From: Ramlibacter aurantiacus
GTDB lineage: Bacteria; Pseudomonadota; Gammaproteobacteria; Burkholderiales; Burkholderiaceae_C
Reading direction: 5' to 3'
Assembly: GCF_016722895.1 (NCBI RefSeq)
Contig: NZ_JAEQNA010000001.1
Location: 930,001 to 994,000 of the forward strand
Length of the DNA: 64,000 nucleotides
Positions 3,827-18,214 of the stretch are shown piece after piece. The notes under the pieces were generated by a model, which did not search any database, was not told where the DNA came from, and worked only from the letters and a program-made list of their open reading frames with translations. How positions within the stretch are numbered: position 1 is the stretch's first letter; the number at the start of each line of letters is the position of its first letter. Position numbers and translations under genes: made by a program.

Positions 3827-4985
3827 CTTGCACCTGTTCCTGTCGAGAATCCAGCACGAGACCCGGTTGGTCAAGGAAGCCCGCGCAACCTTGGCGATGC
3901 GCGTGTTCAGCCGGGTACGTGTGCTGGGCTTGTGGGACCATGGGCTTCCCGTGCGTGACGTCGACCCGTGTGGCATGGAGGTCAGGAGGGTTCGCACGCT
4001 CCTGGGCTTCGTCAGGGCTCGCTTTCCATCGCTGCAGCCCGGGCCCCTTACCCAGGTTTATGCGGGTCTTTCTTTCCTGCAATATGCCTTCGCGGCGGCT
4101 TGGCAAGCGCTGGTCTTGCGACCGTCGCACATCAGCTGCCACAACGCGGTCTTGCTTCCGATCGCCTGGTTCGCCGCGAAGCTCGGCGGCAGCAAGCTGG
4201 TCTACGTTCCCCATGAGCTGGAGGTGGAGCGAACTGGTTTGTCCCTGAACGCCAAGCGATTCGAAGCGCCGCTCGAACGCGCTCTCATCAAGCGCTGCGC
4301 TTTGGTGGTGGTCGTCAGCGAACCGATTGCGGCCTGGTATCGCCAGCGGTACCAGTTGCGCGAAGTCGTGGTGGTGCGCGCGATTCCGGACAGTGGCTTT
4401 GCACCGGGTCATTCAGCCGACCGTGCACGCATCCGAGCCAGTCACGGCGTCCCGGCGGATGCGTTGCTGTTCATCTACCAGGGTGTACTGGCAGCCGAGC
4501 GCGGCGTCGACGATCTCGTGCAGATCTTCCGCCGCTCGAACAATCCAAGGCTTCATCTCATGCTCATGGGGTATGGCGAAGCCGAGGCCCGCATCCAGGA
4601 AGCCGCCGCGCAATGTCCCAACATCCACTTCCAGGCTGCGGTGCCCGTGGACCAGATTTGCCGGTATACCGCGGCAGCGGACGTCGGCATCTTCGTCCTG
4701 CGTGATCCGCTAAGTTTGAGTTATCGACTCTGCCTGCCCAACAAGTTCTTCGAGTACTTGTACGCCGAACTTCCGGTGATCGTCTCGGACAACCTCAGCC
4801 ATCTCGCGGAGTTGGTCCAGGAGCACAGGATTGGATGGGTCACGCGCCCGGAGGATCTGCCGCAACTGATCGACACGATCGAAGCCGGCGGCATTGTCTC
4901 GATCAAACCAGCCGTCAAGGATTTCGTTGCAAGGAACACCTGGGCGTCCGAACGGTCCCGTTACACCGTGGTCTACGGCGGCTGA
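3816..4985 (+). CDS. Glycosyltransferase family 4 (GT-B fold)
   Basis: The product is a 389-residue cytoplasmic glycosyltransferase that probably adds one sugar of the polysaccharide repeat to the lipid carrier. The N-terminal half has the acceptor-domain pattern with VYVPHELE around residue 130. The C-terminal half has the donor-domain features FIYQGVLAAERGVDDLV, LMGYGEAEARI and NKFFEYLYAELPVIVSD, the GT4-type nucleotide-sugar binding region with its conserved glutamate. The ATG at 3816 lies inside the end of the preceding gene (overlap 11 bases). It is the only recognisable repeat-unit glycosyltransferase in this part of the locus, so others must be encoded upstream or elsewhere. Donor and linkage cannot be read from the sequence. 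Confidence 0.82.
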   Translation: MAANLHLFLSRIQHETRLVKEARATLAMRVFSRVRVLGLWDHGLPVRDVDPCGMEVRRVRTLLGFVRARFPSLQPGPLTQVYAGLSFLQYAFAAAWQALVLRPSHISCHNAVLLPIAWFAAKLGGSKLVYVPHELEVERTGLSLNAKRFEAPLERALIKRCALVVVVSEPIAAWYRQRYQLREVVVVRAIPDSGFAPGHSADRARIRASHGVPADALLFIYQGVLAAERGVDDLVQIFRRSNNPRLHLMLMGYGEAEARIQEAAAQCPNIHFQAAVPVDQICRYTAAADVGIFVLRDPLSLSYRLCLPNKFFEYLYAELPVIVSDNLSHLAELVQEHRIGWVTRPEDLPQLIDTIEAGGIVSIKPAVKDFVARNTWASERSRYTVVYGG

Positions 4986-4996
4986 GGTCGTTCACC

Positions 4997-6319
4997 ATGC
5001 GGGCTGCCGCGACCTTTCTCAAGCTGGCGCCGACGTTAGGCTGGGGCCAACTGCGGAAGAGCCCGGTTGCGTTATTCACGATCGCGACCGCGGCCACCCA
5101 GGTTTTGCCGCTTGTCAGCACACCGATATTGACGAGGCTCTACACCCCGGCGGCGTTTGGCGCATACGCCATTTATTTCGCGCTGAGCACGATCTGCGTC
5201 ACGCTGGCTGTCCTGTCAATGGAGAACGCGATTTTCCTCGAGGACTCCGATGACGCTGCGGCCACGGCAATGGTGGCCTCGATTCTTCCGCCGGTCATAT
5301 TCTCGGCGCTGCTATCGACCGCCCTCCTGCTGCTTATTCTGGTATTCGATGTCCAGTTGAACGCCAACCTGGGCCACCTATTGCTGTTCATGCCGGCGAC
5401 GGTGCTGCTGTCAGCCTTGTACACGGTGGGCTATACGTGGCTGCTCCGGCTCGGGCGCTATCGAACGCTGGCAATGAACAAGCTGATCCTCGGAGCGAGC
5501 ACGATGATTCTCCAGATCGGCGTCGGGCTCCTACGCCTGGAAGCACTGGGATTCATCCTGGCCAATCTGCTGGGCTATGTGCTTGCCACGCTGCTGGTCT
5601 TCGCTCCCTTCGTCCTCAGACCACGGGACCGGGTCCGGATTCCCGGGTTGAGTGCCATCTGGGCGGTTTACCGGAAGCACAAGGCGCTGCTGTTCTACAC
5701 GACGCCTGGAAGCCTCCTGAACAGCTTTTGCAGCTATCTTCCAGACTTCTTCATCGCCCGGTTGTTCGGCACGACGGTACTCGGCCACTACTCATTGGGG
5801 ATGCGAATGGTCGACGCGCCGCTGACCTTCATCTCCGCCACCGTGCACGATGTCTTCCGGCGCGATTCGGCGCGCGAACAGATGGCCACCGGGCGCTGCC
5901 GCACGAGCTTCAGGAAATACTTCGTGGCCATGTCGGCCATTGCACTGGCGGTGCTCGTGCCACTGATCTTCTTGCAGCCCGCCCTGTTCAAGTTCATCTT
6001 CGGGCCGGCATGGGCACCCTCGGCCATCTACGTGCAGTGTCTAAGCCTTCTCCTCGTGGTGCGCTTCATCTCCTCGCCACTGAGCTACGTGTGGATCGTC
6101 GCGGGGAAGCAGCACTACGACATGGCCTGGCAGGTAGGCCTGCTGGTTCTTTCAGGTGCATCTTTCCTGCTTCCTCGGTTCATCCTCGGCAGCGTGACTC
6201 CGGAGGTCCAATTCACGATCTACAGCGTGGTCATTGGCTGCTGGTATGTGCTGGCCTTGTTCTTGTCCTACTACTGGTCGAACGCAAATGATGAACTTCG
6301 AAAACAACCCGCACACTAA
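4997..6319 (+). CDS. Polysaccharide flippase, Wzx/MATE-like
   Basis: This 440-residue protein has about twelve hydrophobic segments and begins with the typical flippase N-terminus, in which a first helix (residues about 18-40) is followed by PILTRLYTPAAFGAYA, a motif seen in many Wzx proteins. Wzx flips the undecaprenyl-diphosphate-linked repeat unit across the inner membrane. The best ATG is 4997, 11 bases after the glycosyltransferase stop. The end of the gene overlaps the next gene by 32 bases, showing a compact operon. The family is recognised with good confidence; substrate specificity is unknown. Confidence 0.85.
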   Translation: MRAAATFLKLAPTLGWGQLRKSPVALFTIATAATQVLPLVSTPILTRLYTPAAFGAYAIYFALSTICVTLAVLSMENAIFLEDSDDAAATAMVASILPPVIFSALLSTALLLLILVFDVQLNANLGHLLLFMPATVLLSALYTVGYTWLLRLGRYRTLAMNKLILGASTMILQIGVGLLRLEALGFILANLLGYVLATLLVFAPFVLRPRDRVRIPGLSAIWAVYRKHKALLFYTTPGSLLNSFCSYLPDFFIARLFGTTVLGHYSLGMRMVDAPLTFISATVHDVFRRDSAREQMATGRCRTSFRKYFVAMSAIALAVLVPLIFLQPALFKFIFGPAWAPSAIYVQCLSLLLVVRFISSPLSYVWIVAGKQHYDMAWQVGLLVLSGASFLLPRFILGSVTPEVQFTIYSVVIGCWYVLALFLSYYWSNANDELRKQPAH

Positions 6320-7502
6320 GTCGCTGCACAAGCATCCGTACCAGGCATGTACGCGATGCGTCATGGACACCTCCGATCCCGAAATTCAGTTCGATGAGCA
6401 GGGTGTCTGCAACCATTGCCGCCACTATGAGGCGTACGTCGCTTCGCTCGGCGACGCCCAGGCACGGGCGGCCAAGCTGAACCAGACAGTCCAGACGCTC
6501 AAAGCGGCGGGCCAGAACAGAGAGTACGACTGCATCATGGGGCTGAGCGGGGGCGTCGACAGTTCCTATCTCGCGCACTACGCCGTCAGGACGCTGGGGC
6601 TTCGCCCGCTGGTGGTGCATGTCGACTCGGGCTGGAATTCCGAACTGGCGGTGAGCAACATCGAGACGATGTGCAATCGCCTCGGCATCGACCTGCACAC
6701 CCTGGTGCTCGACTGGGACGAAATGCGCGACCTGCAGCGCGCCTACTTCCGTTCTGGCGTGCCGAACCTGGACGTTCCCCAGGACCACGCTTTCAATGCC
6801 GCCATGGTGGGCGAAGCGAAGAAGTACGGCATCCGCAACGTCCTCAACGGCGGCAACATGCAGACCGAGTCCATCCTGCCGACGGCGTGGGGCTACGATG
6901 CCAGCGATCCTGGCAGCCTCATGGCAATCCACAAGCGATTCGGCACGATGCCGCTGAAAACCTACCCCCTCCGTTCAGACTTCTCCCGGCTCCTGTTCGA
7001 CCCGTGCATTTTTGGCATGCGTGTTCACCGGCCCCTCGAATACATTGACTACAACAAGTTCGCCGCGAAGAAGCTCCTTCATGAAGAGTTGGGCTGGCGG
7101 GATTACGGCGGCAAACACTACGAGTCTCGGTTCACGAAGTTCTTCCAGGCGCATTACCTTCCCACCAAGTTCGGCTATGACAAGCGGAAGGCGCACCTGG
7201 CGAGCCTGATTGTTTCCGGCCAGCTCTCGCGGGACGCCGCCCTGCAGGAGTTGGCCGTGCCGCTCTACGACGCCGAGGAGCTCGAGTCGGACATCACGTA
7301 CTTCTGCAAGAAGCTCAGCATTCCACGCAAGGAGTACGAAGAGGTCATGGCTTCGCCGCCGAAAACCCACCGCGACTATCCAAATCGCGAGGCCGCGTAC
7401 GCTCGGATGCGCCGGGCAACCCAGTTCGCCTCCCGGGCAAGACATGCGCTCTTCGGTCGTGCGCCCACGGCACTGCAACACGTGGTGAACACACCCAGGT
7501 AG
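6288..7502 (+). CDS. wbpG: N-acetyl sugar amidotransferase, WbpG/PseA family
   Basis: The protein has 404 residues and the features of N-acetyl sugar amidotransferases, which convert an acetamido group to an acetamidino group in an ATP-dependent reaction. The N-terminus carries two CxxC pairs (C21/C24 and C41/C44), likely a zinc knuckle, in the family pattern CxRCVMDTSDP...GVCNHC. The PP-loop SGGVDSS lies at residues 87-93. In Pseudomonas the WbpG enzyme works with HisH- and HisF-like ammonia-supplying partners, and the order wbpB-wbpD-wbpE-wzy-wzx-wbpG is similar here. No hisH/hisF-like genes occur in the window. The start ATG (6288, or 6291) lies within the end of the flippase gene. Confidence 0.85.
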   Translation: MMNFENNPHTKSLHKHPYQACTRCVMDTSDPEIQFDEQGVCNHCRHYEAYVASLGDAQARAAKLNQTVQTLKAAGQNREYDCIMGLSGGVDSSYLAHYAVRTLGLRPLVVHVDSGWNSELAVSNIETMCNRLGIDLHTLVLDWDEMRDLQRAYFRSGVPNLDVPQDHAFNAAMVGEAKKYGIRNVLNGGNMQTESILPTAWGYDASDPGSLMAIHKRFGTMPLKTYPLRSDFSRLLFDPCIFGMRVHRPLEYIDYNKFAAKKLLHEELGWRDYGGKHYESRFTKFFQAHYLPTKFGYDKRKAHLASLIVSGQLSRDAALQELAVPLYDAEELESDITYFCKKLSIPRKEYEEVMASPPKTHRDYPNREAAYARMRRATQFASRARHALFGRAPTALQHVVNTPR

Positions 7503-7678: not shown

Positions 7679-9250
7679 ATGAACGCTGATCTCACGTTTC
7701 TCGGGCATAACTGCTTCCTGGTCGAAACCGCTCACGAGGCGCTGCTGATCGATCCCTGGCTTAACGATACAGGCGCGTTCTTCGGGAGCTGGCACCAGTG
7801 GCCGCCGAATAGCCACTTGCGAGACGTCGTCCATCGACGTTGCGCCGAGAAGAAACTGCGCATTTTCCTGACCCACGAGCACCAAGACCATTTCGATCGA
7901 TCGACGTTGGCGGGGTTTTCCGCGCATCCGGACTGCACCGTCGTCATTCCTTCGTACAGAGACAAATTCTTGCTCGATGCGCTACAGGGTCTGCACCTGA
8001 ATGCGGTGGAACTGGAGGAGGCGCAGCCCTGCGGCGGCGACATCCAATTCCGCATTTTCATCGATGACAGCGGGATCAATCATGACGCGGCGATATTCGT
8101 TGCCGCGCCAGGCCTCACGTTTTTCAACCAGAACGACTGCAAGATTTTTGACCGCTTGCCGGCGCTGGTGAAAGAGTTGCCCGATCTCGACTATTACTCG
8201 GTGCAGTTTTCAGGTGCAAATTGGCACCCCTCCAGCTTCATCTTGCCCGAGGACCAGCGCCGCCGGGAGGCCAGAAAGAAGGTTCTCAGCAAATTGCGCA
8301 ACGTGGCTGGCGGTGTAAAAACACTCTCGCCACGCTTTTTCGTGCCGGCGGCCGGTCCTGCGTTCTTCCCCTTTCTCGACCCTGCATTGAACGCCGGGAC
8401 CGGCACGATTTTCATCCATCAGAATGAGCTCGCGGAATACCTGGCCCAGACCGGCATCCACAATGTGTTGTATCCGCGTCCGGGTGAGCGCGTCAATGAG
8501 GACGCCAGCCGCGTGCCGATTCCCGGTCCGACGCCGGCCGAGATCGAGCAATACGTGGCGACTCACAAGAACGTGTGGGAAGCAATCGAGGACAACTTTT
8601 CGCCGACGCGATTTGCTGCGATCCTTCAGCGCCGCCTGAGTCTGATTGCCGGGATTACCTTGCCCCCGGAAACGCCATTGATCACTTTCCGCTGGGGAAG
8701 CGGGTCGTCCGATTCACTGGTGGTCGACTTGGTCGGCAACACCTTGCGGGCGACCCAGGAGCCAGGGGCGCCATGCCTGTTGCTCAGTGCCAGCACCAGA
8801 TATTTCTCGCTGATGTGCGGCGAAGATCGCTGGCAAGACATTGCCTTGAGCCTGAACGCCACCATCGAGCGGCGGCCCGACGTGTATAACACCCTTGTCA
8901 ACATCTTCCTGTTTGCGGACGAATCAAACCTGGCCGAGTCGGTGATCCATAACCTCAACTTGTCCAAAGAGCGCATCGTGGTCGAGCATAAGGGCCAACA
9001 ATACGAAATCAATCGCTATTGCCCTCACCAAGGCGGTGACCTGGCCTACGCGAGCATCGACGACGACCTGCACGTGGTTTGCCCGCGCCATGGCTGGCGC
9101 TTCGACCTGTCATGCGAAGGCATGTGCAAAACCTCCGGCGTGAGCATTGACGCCATCAAAGTGCGCGCCAAGCCTTCAGAAACCAGCCACAGGGAGACGC
9201 TGAATCATCAGCGTCAACGCGCTCCGGCCAGGAGGGGCGTCGCCAGTTGA
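7679..9250 (+). CDS. MBL-fold and Rieske [2Fe-2S] protein resembling CMP-Neu5Ac hydroxylase (CMAH), domains swapped
   Basis: The product has 523 residues. Residues 1 to about 300 form a metallo-beta-lactamase fold with ITYLTHxC-like start (LTFLGHNC), DPWL at 25-28 and the metal motif H66-x-H68-x-D70-H71. The C-terminus carries a complete Rieske motif, C448-x-H450 and C468-x-x-H471. From memory of vertebrate CMAH, several segments correspond in order: DPWL, the HxHxDH strand, the NxxDC segment, a FAG/PAAG motif and an N-terminal-to-C-terminal YxxL helix. In CMAH the Rieske domain comes first; here it comes last. CMAH hydroxylates N-acetyl to N-glycolyl, so an analogous modification of an acetamido sugar is a reasonable inference. 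It sits 176 bases after wbpG and seems slightly less GC-rich than its neighbours. Confidence 0.75.
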   Translation: MNADLTFLGHNCFLVETAHEALLIDPWLNDTGAFFGSWHQWPPNSHLRDVVHRRCAEKKLRIFLTHEHQDHFDRSTLAGFSAHPDCTVVIPSYRDKFLLDALQGLHLNAVELEEAQPCGGDIQFRIFIDDSGINHDAAIFVAAPGLTFFNQNDCKIFDRLPALVKELPDLDYYSVQFSGANWHPSSFILPEDQRRREARKKVLSKLRNVAGGVKTLSPRFFVPAAGPAFFPFLDPALNAGTGTIFIHQNELAEYLAQTGIHNVLYPRPGERVNEDASRVPIPGPTPAEIEQYVATHKNVWEAIEDNFSPTRFAAILQRRLSLIAGITLPPETPLITFRWGSGSSDSLVVDLVGNTLRATQEPGAPCLLLSASTRYFSLMCGEDRWQDIALSLNATIERRPDVYNTLVNIFLFADESNLAESVIHNLNLSKERIVVEHKGQQYEINRYCPHQGGDLAYASIDDDLHVVCPRHGWRFDLSCEGMCKTSGVSIDAIKVRAKPSETSHRETLNHQRQRAPARRGVAS

Positions 9251-16085: not shown

Positions 16086-16763
16086 TCAGTTGACCGGCTT
16101 GTCCAGGTGGTGCCGGGTGGCGTAGGCATACAAATCCAGGCGATTGGTCAGGTGCAGCTTGCTGTAGATCGACGTCAGGTGGTTGCGCAAGGTGTGCTCG
16201 CTGATGCACAGCCGACTGGCGATCACCTTTGCCGGCGCCGAGGTATCGGCTGCCAGAGCCGCGATGGCTTGGCGCTCGCGATGGGTGAGCAGCGACACCC
16301 GAACCCGCTCAGGATCGCTCTTTTCGTCGGTCTTCTGGCGGGCCAGTTGCATGAACATGCGGCTGGTCGTGCCGCGGTCGATCCATAGCTCGCCCTGGTG
16401 CACCTTTTCGATGGCAGTCAGCAAGACCTTGGGCGACTCGCTCTTGCGCACGATGCCCTGCAGCCCGCTGAGCACGGCGTGGTCGAGCGCCCCAGGATCC
16501 GTCGTGCCGGTGAAGGCGATCACGCGCATGTGCCGGGGTTCGAGGAAATCGATGAACTCTGCCGAATCGAGGTTGCCATCGTGATCCACCACGATGACAT
16601 CGGCCGTGCCCAGCGGGAATGTCTGTCGGGCGGTCGAGAGCTCTGGCGCGGTGCCCGCGAGTTCCAATGCAGGCGATGACTTGACCAATTGCTCCAAAGC
16701 CCAGCACATCAGTGGCAGTGCCACCAAGCCGACCCGGATCTGTCTGTGATCAGCTTCCTGCAT
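16086..16763 (-). CDS. LuxR/NarL-type response-regulator-like transcription factor, copy 1
   Basis: The protein has 225 residues: a receiver-like domain (about 1-125) and a C-terminal LuxR helix-turn-helix (about 158-215, with LTHRERQ and SEHTLRNHLTSIYSKL). D60 lies at the phosphoacceptor position and K107 at the conserved lysine position, but the acidic pair usually found after the first strand is replaced by non-acidic residues (VGLVALPLM), so it may be a pseudo-receiver. It is a close paralogue of the gene at 17349-18026: both are exactly 225 residues with D60 and K107 in register. A divergent PilZ gene starts 246 bases away. The ribosome site is weak (AGGA, 3 bases from the ATG). Confidence 0.85.
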   Translation of the reverse strand: MQEADHRQIRVGLVALPLMCWALEQLVKSSPALELAGTAPELSTARQTFPLGTADVIVVDHDGNLDSAEFIDFLEPRHMRVIAFTGTTDPGALDHAVLSGLQGIVRKSESPKVLLTAIEKVHQGELWIDRGTTSRMFMQLARQKTDEKSDPERVRVSLLTHRERQAIAALAADTSAPAKVIASRLCISEHTLRNHLTSIYSKLHLTNRLDLYAYATRHHLDKPVN

Positions 16764-17348: not shown

Positions 17349-18026
17349 TCAGGCCGCCGGCTTGTCCAGCCGGTGCCGCGTGGCGAAGGCGTACAGGTCA
17401 AGCCGGTTGCACACATCCAGCTTGCTGTAGATGGAACTGAGATGGTTGCGCAGCGTGTGCTCGCTGATGCACAGGCGCCGCGCGATCACCTTGCCCGGCG
17501 CAGCGGCATCGGTCACCACCGCCAGGATGGTCTGGCGCTCGCGCGCGGTGAGCGTGGCGATGCGCGCCAGCTCGGGATCGTCCTCGCGCGCAGCCTTCTG
17601 CCTTGCCATCTCCATGAAGATGCGGCTGGTGGCACTGCGATCGATCCACAGCTCGCCGAGGTGAACCTTCTCGATGGCCTTGAGCAGCGTGGCCGGCGGA
17701 TCGCTCTTGCGCACCACGCCATGCAGGCCCATGAGCACGGCCTGGTCGAACAGGCCCAGGTCGGTCAATGCGGTGAGCACGATCACGCGGCACCGGCTCT
17801 CTTCGAGCCATTCGAGCAACAAGGGCACATCGTCCTTGTCGTCGACATCCACCAGGACGACGTCAGCCGCGCCGACAGTCGAAGAACCGATGCCCTGGCG
17901 CAAGCCGTGGACGGACGCGACGACGGAGCAATTTGGCGAGGAGTCGACCAATTGCTCCAAGCCCCAGGACATCATCTGCTGAGCGACGATCGAAACTCGA
18001 ATGGCGGTCTCGGTCAACTGCGTCAT
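17349..18026 (-). CDS. LuxR/NarL-type response-regulator-like transcription factor, copy 2
   Basis: The product has 225 residues and the same architecture as copy 1: receiver-like domain with D60 and K107, and a LuxR helix-turn-helix (LTARERQ, SEHTLRNHLSSIYSKL). The segment after the first strand (VSIVAQQMM) again lacks the usual acidic pair. I chose the ATG at 18026 because AAGGAG lies 7 bases upstream on the - strand and it makes the two paralogues the same length; an open extension to 18140 is unsupported. It is divergent from PilZ copy 2, separated by 246 bases, the same distance as in copy 1. Its targets are unknown; the tad operon immediately downstream of the PilZ gene is the obvious candidate. 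Confidence 0.86.
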   Translation of the reverse strand: MTQLTETAIRVSIVAQQMMSWGLEQLVDSSPNCSVVASVHGLRQGIGSSTVGAADVVLVDVDDKDDVPLLLEWLEESRCRVIVLTALTDLGLFDQAVLMGLHGVVRKSDPPATLLKAIEKVHLGELWIDRSATSRIFMEMARQKAAREDDPELARIATLTARERQTILAVVTDAAAPGKVIARRLCISEHTLRNHLSSIYSKLDVCNRLDLYAFATRHRLDKPAA

Positions 18027-18214
18027 CGTGCGACTCCTTGGTGCCTGTTGCGGGAGATCGTAGGCAGGTGCCTGCGAGCTGCGAGCCATATTACATCTGG
18101 TTGCGACCGCTTGTGTGAACTTGCAAACGGATGAGCGCAATCGGCGTCACGGTCGAGTTCGTTCCAGCATGCAGAGCAGTCGAATGAACTAGAAGCAGGC
18201 ATGACATAAGCCCC

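Follow-up and report, generated by a model that had tools for sequence, protein, structure and literature searches.

The stretch of DNA analysed here (64,000 nucleotides, hereafter the window) carries, next to a polysaccharide locus, a gene whose product joins an MBL-fold domain to a Rieske domain. This raises the question of what reaction such a protein would catalyze and, if it acts on a sugar, whether that sugar is the one made by its neighbours.

Domains and metal residues of the window protein

The gene (7679–9250, plus strand) is an open frame with an ATG start that encodes a protein of 523 residues, P0001, with 13 uninterrupted orthologues at 33–78% identity. The MBL-fold domain occupies approximately residues 1–298 (7679–8572, plus strand), its end being placed by eye from the model and the alignment; it was recognized by Pfam (Lactamase_B_3, PF13483, residues 5–90, E = 9.4e-7, 29.4 bits versus a cut-off of 24), in alignment A3, in the structural model and by PDB profile matches to FrsH (8a90) and CmlA. 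It is followed by a middle region (approximately residues 300–405; 8576–8893, plus strand), which in an hhalign comparison of alignments A4 and A5 is collinear with the SCP2_Rv3818 (PF25451) part of NamH-type proteins, and by a Rieske [2Fe-2S] domain (PF00355, residues 413–485; 8915–9133, plus strand; E = 1.2e-10, 41.6 bits versus a cut-off of 20.3).

The initial annotation had recognized a complete MBL site (H66, H68, D70 and H71) and a complete Rieske site (C448, H450, C468 and H471) in this one protein, and both were borne out by the Pfam domains and by alignment A3, in which all eight residues were invariant in 15 of 15 rows, i.e., P0001 itself, 13 orthologues from Pseudomonadota, Cyanobacteriota and Bacillota, and one actinobacterial NamH-type protein. 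A chance motif match is ruled out by the orthologues and by this invariance, which extended to D136, N150, N152 and D153. Homology with the orthologues spans P0001 from its start to approximately residue 497, the final 26 residues being unconserved; the predicted structure had a pLDDT of 87.4 and a pTM of 0.88, with pLDDT values below 50 for residues 498–523.

NamH, CMAH and other relatives

The initial annotation regarded a bacterial N-acyl hydroxylase with the MBL domain first and the Rieske domain last as new, but NamH, the UDP-N-acetylmuramate hydroxylase of mycobacteria and their relatives, already has that order. NamH, i.e., Rv3818 (PMC6194230), is described as having an N-terminal UlaG-type domain and a C-terminal Rieske domain (PMC10050696), and as acting on the UDP precursor pool (PMC6127315; PMC11555704). 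Neither this domain order nor a bacterial N-acyl hydroxylase as such is therefore new.

For comparison with P0001, NamH was represented by four actinobacterial stand-ins, from Tsukamurella (L011), Nocardia (L031 and L032) and Rhodococcus (L033), the characterised mycobacterial NamH not being among them. The first three were 77–84% identical to L033, the only one of the four that was scanned, in which the SCP2_Rv3818 family (PF25451) scored 163.9 bits. By BLASTP, P0001 aligned over residues 5–486 with L033 (E = 1e-28) and L011 (E = 8e-30), at 24% and 25% identity. A comparison of the P0001 family with the NamH-type profile gave a probability of 100 and an E value of 1.5e-49 over 459 columns (residues 4–487, 26% identity), with the domains in the same order. 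NamH thus resembles P0001 in having the MBL domain first, the Rieske domain last and an alignable region between them, collinear over the whole length, and the NamH-type row of alignment A3 had the same eight metal residues. It differs in that identity is only about 25%, that P0001 falls below detection by PF25451, and that the two occur in different phyla. With Pfam, PF25451 gave no match at E ≤ 0.01 in P0001 or in the orthologues L020 and L027, although it was found in L033 and L035. Because the PF25451 signature was not found, we class the P0001 group as a sister clade of NamH rather than as NamH itself, and because identity is only 24–26%, the substrate of NamH cannot be transferred to P0001.

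A maximum likelihood tree of the cores (25 rows, midpoint root only) agreed with this classification. The window clade of 14 rows (support 96/96) adjoined a pair formed by the NamH-type proteins and L035 (92/84), and the joint group of all three (98/96) stood apart from CMAH and from MBL relatives that lack a Rieske domain. As judged from sequence, the P0001 clade is a sister clade of NamH outside the Actinobacteria, in which we found no characterised member. The tree carried a long-branch warning for CMAH, L009, L030, L027 and L035, and the position of CMAH is unsure because of these long branches, the midpoint rooting and a CMAH row consisting of a provisional sequence not taken from a database record.

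Three of the NamH-like loci come from plasmids or a viral sequence collection. L035 (1491–3029) is an IMG/VR contig, candidate viral, encoding a full NamH-like protein with PF25451 (E = 2e-11), Rieske and MBL domains. On a Microbacterium plasmid (L034:2995–4752), a NamH-like protein seems to be split into MBL, hypothetical and Rieske ORFs, and this division kept it out of the tree. The NamH-type gene of L033 (1745–4545), on a Rhodococcus ruber plasmid typed as conjugative, adjoins a gene annotated as UDP-N-acetylmuramate dehydrogenase and a CHAP-domain gene.

The initial annotation also linked the protein to CMAH and to the hydroxylation of N-acyl groups, and homology supports this. CMAH is described in a review as a distant homologue of prokaryotic genes for UDP-N-glycolylmuramic acid (PMC6481270); it has been reported in algae and bacteria, with its Rieske domain N-terminal to the MBL domain (PMC8227644). 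When the provisional CMAH sequence was compared with P0001, only the MBL part aligned (25% of 232 columns, E = 1e-11), and the Rieske piece matched separately (67 columns, E = 0.001) at the opposite end. CMAH and P0001 share the MBL core, a Rieske domain, an R-x-P-D motif that closes the core (again in the provisional CMAH sequence) and an expected N-acetyl to N-glycolyl chemistry. They differ in that the match is in pieces and the Rieske domain is at the other end, the Rieske-before-MBL order of CMAH being absent from P0001 by Pfam and by alignment. Because a similar MBL core carries a Rieske domain at either end, these comparisons suggest separate Rieske fusions to that core, which bears on the origin of animal CMAH.

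When the family profile was compared with the PDB, the first matches were diiron monooxygenases, i.e., 8a90 (FrsH, E = 2.2e-8) and CmlA (E = 5.7e-6), after which the C-terminal part matched Rieske oxygenases and the MBL part matched NAPE-PLD. FrsH and CmlA act on different substrates. Being the solved structures closest in sequence to the MBL half, with an HxHxDH motif in an MBL fold, they raise the alternative that P0001 is a FrsH/CmlA- or Rieske-type oxygenase acting on something other than an N-acetyl sugar, such as a peptide, a lipid or an amino-acid side chain. The wide variation in the gene's contexts would fit this, but several of those contexts are glycan-related. The homology, which includes the HxHxDH region, was moreover confined to the N-terminal MBL segment (approximately 120–170 residues), with the Rieske part of P0001 matching other entries, whereas NamH-type proteins align from end to end. 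We therefore regard such a substrate as improbable.

A closer relationship of the MBL half to UlaG would have spoken against the hydroxylase idea of the initial annotation. No UlaG-named match was obtained for P0001 at E ≤ 1 or for the family profile at E ≤ 0.01, in contrast to the full-length NamH-type alignment, and a UlaG-type hydrolase was accordingly rejected as the closest relative by sequence. By fold, the Foldseek matches of the P0001 model to NAPE-PLD (5.8e-10), FrsH 8a90 (1.0e-9) and two entries that we take to be UlaG, 3bv6 (1.2e-9) and 2wyl (4.8e-9), scored about alike; no NamH structure was retrieved with a NamH-type query from the PDB set searched. Five matches to the P0001 model were found in BFVD at E ≤ 0.001, the named ones being MBL-type proteins or hydrolases. 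The presence of 3bv6 and 2wyl among the top fold matches would favour a UlaG-like metallo-hydrolase in which the Rieske domain has another role, as would the best NCBIfam match, PRK00685 'metal-dependent hydrolase' (E = 1.2e-7), although the latter scored 31.5 bits versus a cut-off of 144, covered residues 5–74 only, and was equally weak against the NamH-type protein L033. The metal pattern of MBL hydrolases includes a third His, and the invariant D136 lies, by eye, at about that position. The relatives of known function with this architecture, i.e., NamH and CMAH, are hydroxylases, and we consider a hydrolase highly unlikely.

Five further MBL relatives (L007, L008, L009, L012 and L030), in whose ORFs no Rieske domain was found, share the MBL core of P0001, and L007 and L008 match as far as residue 411, where the middle region stops. 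The latter two (L007:1474–2778 and L008:1486–2775) are MBL proteins of 430–435 residues, each encoded just after what, on visual inspection, resembles a methyltransferase gene.

Distribution and genomic surroundings

Other bacterial genes with the MBL-first, Rieske-last order, which the initial annotation had proposed to seek, were found at 15 loci in a contig scan (94 stretches matched, 15 confirmed), and their neighbours were compared over up to 10 kb per side (less in L015, L018, L021, L025 and L026). The scan used two peptide patterns derived from an alignment of just two rows, and the taxa listed are therefore a minimum. Five copies from Massilia, including M. polaris (L013), M. soli and M. 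agrisoli, were 62–78% identical to P0001; those at 33–44% identity came from two Prochlorococcus, SAR116 and another alphaproteobacterium, three gammaproteobacteria, two betaproteobacteria and Cohnella. Among 60 genomes of the window's genus (at 1e-20) and 274 of a class sample (at 1e-10), the only positive genome was that of the window itself. The second of two positives among 398 genomes of the phylum sample (1e-20) was the Rieske-less MBL protein L030, and the five in the order sample (of 300, at 1e-8) were the window genome, one true orthologue (G502) and three Rieske-less MBL proteins. A plasmid search yielded 12 records, none of which reached 80% query coverage; six of them were inspected. 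We conclude that the gene is sporadic and probably moving horizontally.

Two copies, L022 and L025, have interrupted reading frames. In these betaproteobacteria (SCN2, L022:10001–11474; Thiobacillus UBA2186, L025:5682–7147), the frames are broken at different points, through either decay or assembly error, and both copies adjoin what, on visual inspection, seem to be pdxA and rsmA. Because of the interruptions, neither L022/L006 nor L025 was included in alignments A3 and A4 or in the tree, a piece of L006 of 419 residues being used in alignments A1 and A2 only.

The genes directly upstream of the P0001 gene in the window, all on the plus strand, encode a WbpB/WlbA-type sugar dehydrogenase (1–838, starting 113 bp before the window; L028:17888–18838; phmmer to WbpB 3oa2, E = 9.8e-155), a WlbB-type N-acetyltransferase (835–1449; phmmer to 3mqg, a lipopolysaccharides biosynthesis acetyltransferase that we take to be WlbB, E = 2.4e-91), a WbpE-type aminotransferase (1404–2573; phmmer to WbpE 3nyu, E = 8e-163), a Wzx-type flippase (4835–6319; PF13440, E = 1.7e-20) and, as the immediate neighbour, a WbuX-type N-acetyl sugar amidotransferase (6234–7502; TIGR03573, 298.2 bits versus a cut-off of 203.2). 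The locus also encodes a TviB/WbpA-like dehydrogenase (556.2 bits, below the equivalog cut-off of 592 but above the subfamily cut-off of TIGR03026). Together, TviB/WbpA-like, WbpB, WlbB, WbpE and WbuX proteins match the pathway to a diacetamido uronic acid, and the earlier description of the neighbours as rich in diacetamido-sugar genes is confirmed. The stop of the WbuX gene and the start of the P0001 gene are 176 bp apart; a consensus scan of this gap found no promoter, a result that is uninformative. A second WbuX-type amidotransferase lies approximately 17 kb before the window start (G000:C1:912070–913077).

With this pathway next door, the initial annotation took an acetamido sugar of the adjacent locus as substrate. 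The enzyme would then convert N-acetyl to N-glycolyl on a UDP-GlcNAc(3NAc)A-type sugar, and the N-glycolyl group would appear in the surface polysaccharide. Besides the upstream genes themselves, the distant carrier L020 favours this independently, with WlbA (56%), WlbB (63%) and WlbE (56%) 4–7 kb upstream of the hydroxylase gene, as does L016, with homologues of WlbB (68%) and WbpM (43%) approximately 9 kb and 5 kb from the gene; the L021 and L023 copies are also near polysaccharide-type genes. However, WlbA/WbpB was found at E ≤ 1e-40 in only 3 of the 16 carrier genomes (window, L020 and L024), the five Massilia all lacking a match, none of the 15 other loci has a WbuX homologue at E ≤ 1e-6, and the sister of the window gene, the L015 copy (98/91), is not accompanied by any of the window's polysaccharide genes; the 176-bp gap to the WbuX gene also counts against the proposal. 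The pathway beside the gene thus stands, but its product is a rather doubtful candidate for the substrate.

The carrier genomes comprise that of the window (99.78% complete) and 15 others, for none of which completeness was given. The five Massilia genomes are of 4.5–7.4 Mb, and eight others of only 1.0–2.5 Mb, several of them MAG or single-cell-type assemblies. Because of these sizes, absences in the small genomes are weak, and the argument rests mainly on the window genome and the five Massilia. WbuX was found at E ≤ 1e-30 in 7 of 16 carriers and NeuB (PF03102, E ≤ 1e-15) in 8 of 16 (L018, L019, L020, L021, L023, L024, L026 and L027), so that, with WlbA/WbpB in 3 of 16, none of the three was shown to be common to all carriers; at these thresholds, the five Massilia had none of them. 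The same search found no NeuB in the window genome (the control matched in 6 of 14 genomes), and sialic-type substrates are therefore unlikely; a CMP-sialate was rejected as substrate in the window organism. The combination of an MBL core with a Rieske domain, and NeuB in half of the carriers, might still suggest a true CMAH acting on a CMP-nonulosonate (sialic, legionaminic or pseudaminic acid). Against this stand the missing NeuB in the window genome and all five Massilia, and the alignment with CMAH of the MBL part only, with the Rieske piece at the other end (provisional CMAH sequence); we consider this reading extremely improbable.

Several carriers have other glycan-related genes nearby. 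In L021 (SAR116; L021:3525–5400), 84 bp separate the start of the hydroxylase gene from the MurQ-type gene that precedes it (PRK05441, 268 bits versus a cut-off of 168; TIGR00274 below cut-off), and a divergent AnmK gene adjoins, forming a peptidoglycan-recycling pair; such a link to MurNAc through neighbours was seen at 1 of the 15 loci. Polysaccharide-deacetylase genes adjoin the L018 and L026 copies (the latter identified by 76% identity to L018), and L020 has a WbmS-like polysaccharide-deacetylase 1.3 kb downstream. In four of the five Massilia (L013, L014, L015 and L017), a conserved gene of 260–266 codons lies directly upstream (e.g., L013:9180–9980). Its product has an invariant VVVHRHDIDTD motif, an HDxD-type motif that we take to be deacetylase-like in appearance. 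Nothing exceeded the Pfam cut-offs in the three of four copies scanned, nothing was found in NCBIfam with one copy, and the predicted structure had a pLDDT of 40; because of this pLDDT and the lack of a family match, the deacetylase-like reading is unproven. The protein had no match in the window genome in a search run without a positive control. An enzyme specific for the sugar of the window's polysaccharide would not easily explain the Massilia contexts and the surroundings of the sister copy in L015.

Proposed reaction and its implications

Because P0001 aligns end to end with NamH-type proteins and matches CMAH only in pieces, N-acetyl to N-glycolyl hydroxylation is the best-supported chemistry, and on these grounds of homology P0001 probably hydroxylates the N-acetyl group of some sugar. 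In the reaction that we propose, a NamH-type, O2-dependent enzyme would act on an amino sugar activated as a nucleotide and turn its N-acetyl group into N-glycolyl. An iron site in the MBL domain, possibly a diiron site like that of FrsH and CmlA, the nearest sequence matches among solved structures, would activate O2, and the fused C-terminal Rieske cluster, as such domains suggest, would pass electrons to it. The position hydroxylated would be the methyl of the N-acetyl group. The substrate would be a sugar nucleotide that every carrier makes, UDP-MurNAc being the first candidate and other UDP-HexNAc the second, and the N-glycolyl groups would enter peptidoglycan or another envelope glycan. 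A substrate common to all carriers, with UDP-MurNAc first, is parsimonious and the most likely, although the position of the gene among diacetamido-uronic-acid genes in the window and in L020 speaks against it. That P0001 is a NamH-type hydroxylase acting on a common UDP-sugar, for instance UDP-MurNAc, has in our view an even chance of being correct.

N-glycolyl groups are uncommon. Bacterial N-glycolylation is portrayed as chiefly a trait of Actinomycetales (PMC11555704), which speaks against the proposed reaction; there it occurs mainly as N-glycolylmuramic acid (PMC11555704; PMC6127315), and, according to the same sources, loss of NamH causes greater sensitivity to lysozyme and β-lactams, and the N-glycolyl sugar is better recognised by NOD2. 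More generally, the NamH/CMAH-type clade may provide Gram-negative bacteria and Prochlorococcus with envelope sugars that carry N-glycolyl groups, whether these sit in peptidoglycan precursors or in polysaccharides containing diacetamido uronic acids, a proposal that we hold to be evenly balanced between true and false. If true, it would add a third branch to actinobacterial MurNGlyc and animal Neu5Gc. The occurrence of the clade in Massilia, SAR116, gammaproteobacteria, Prochlorococcus and Cohnella would predict N-glycolylation in groups for which a limited literature search found no report, Massilia and marine bacteria included; that search covered open-licence literature, among it PMC11555704 and PMC3658417.

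Two features of the surrounding sequence lie outside this scheme. Ahead of the polysaccharide locus, L028:12182–13978 resembles the radical copper oxidase GlxA, with 226 bits, below the cut-off of 800. Beyond the P0001 gene, on the minus strand of the window, two similar ORFs (16086–16763 and 17349–18140) look by eye like LuxR-type regulators.
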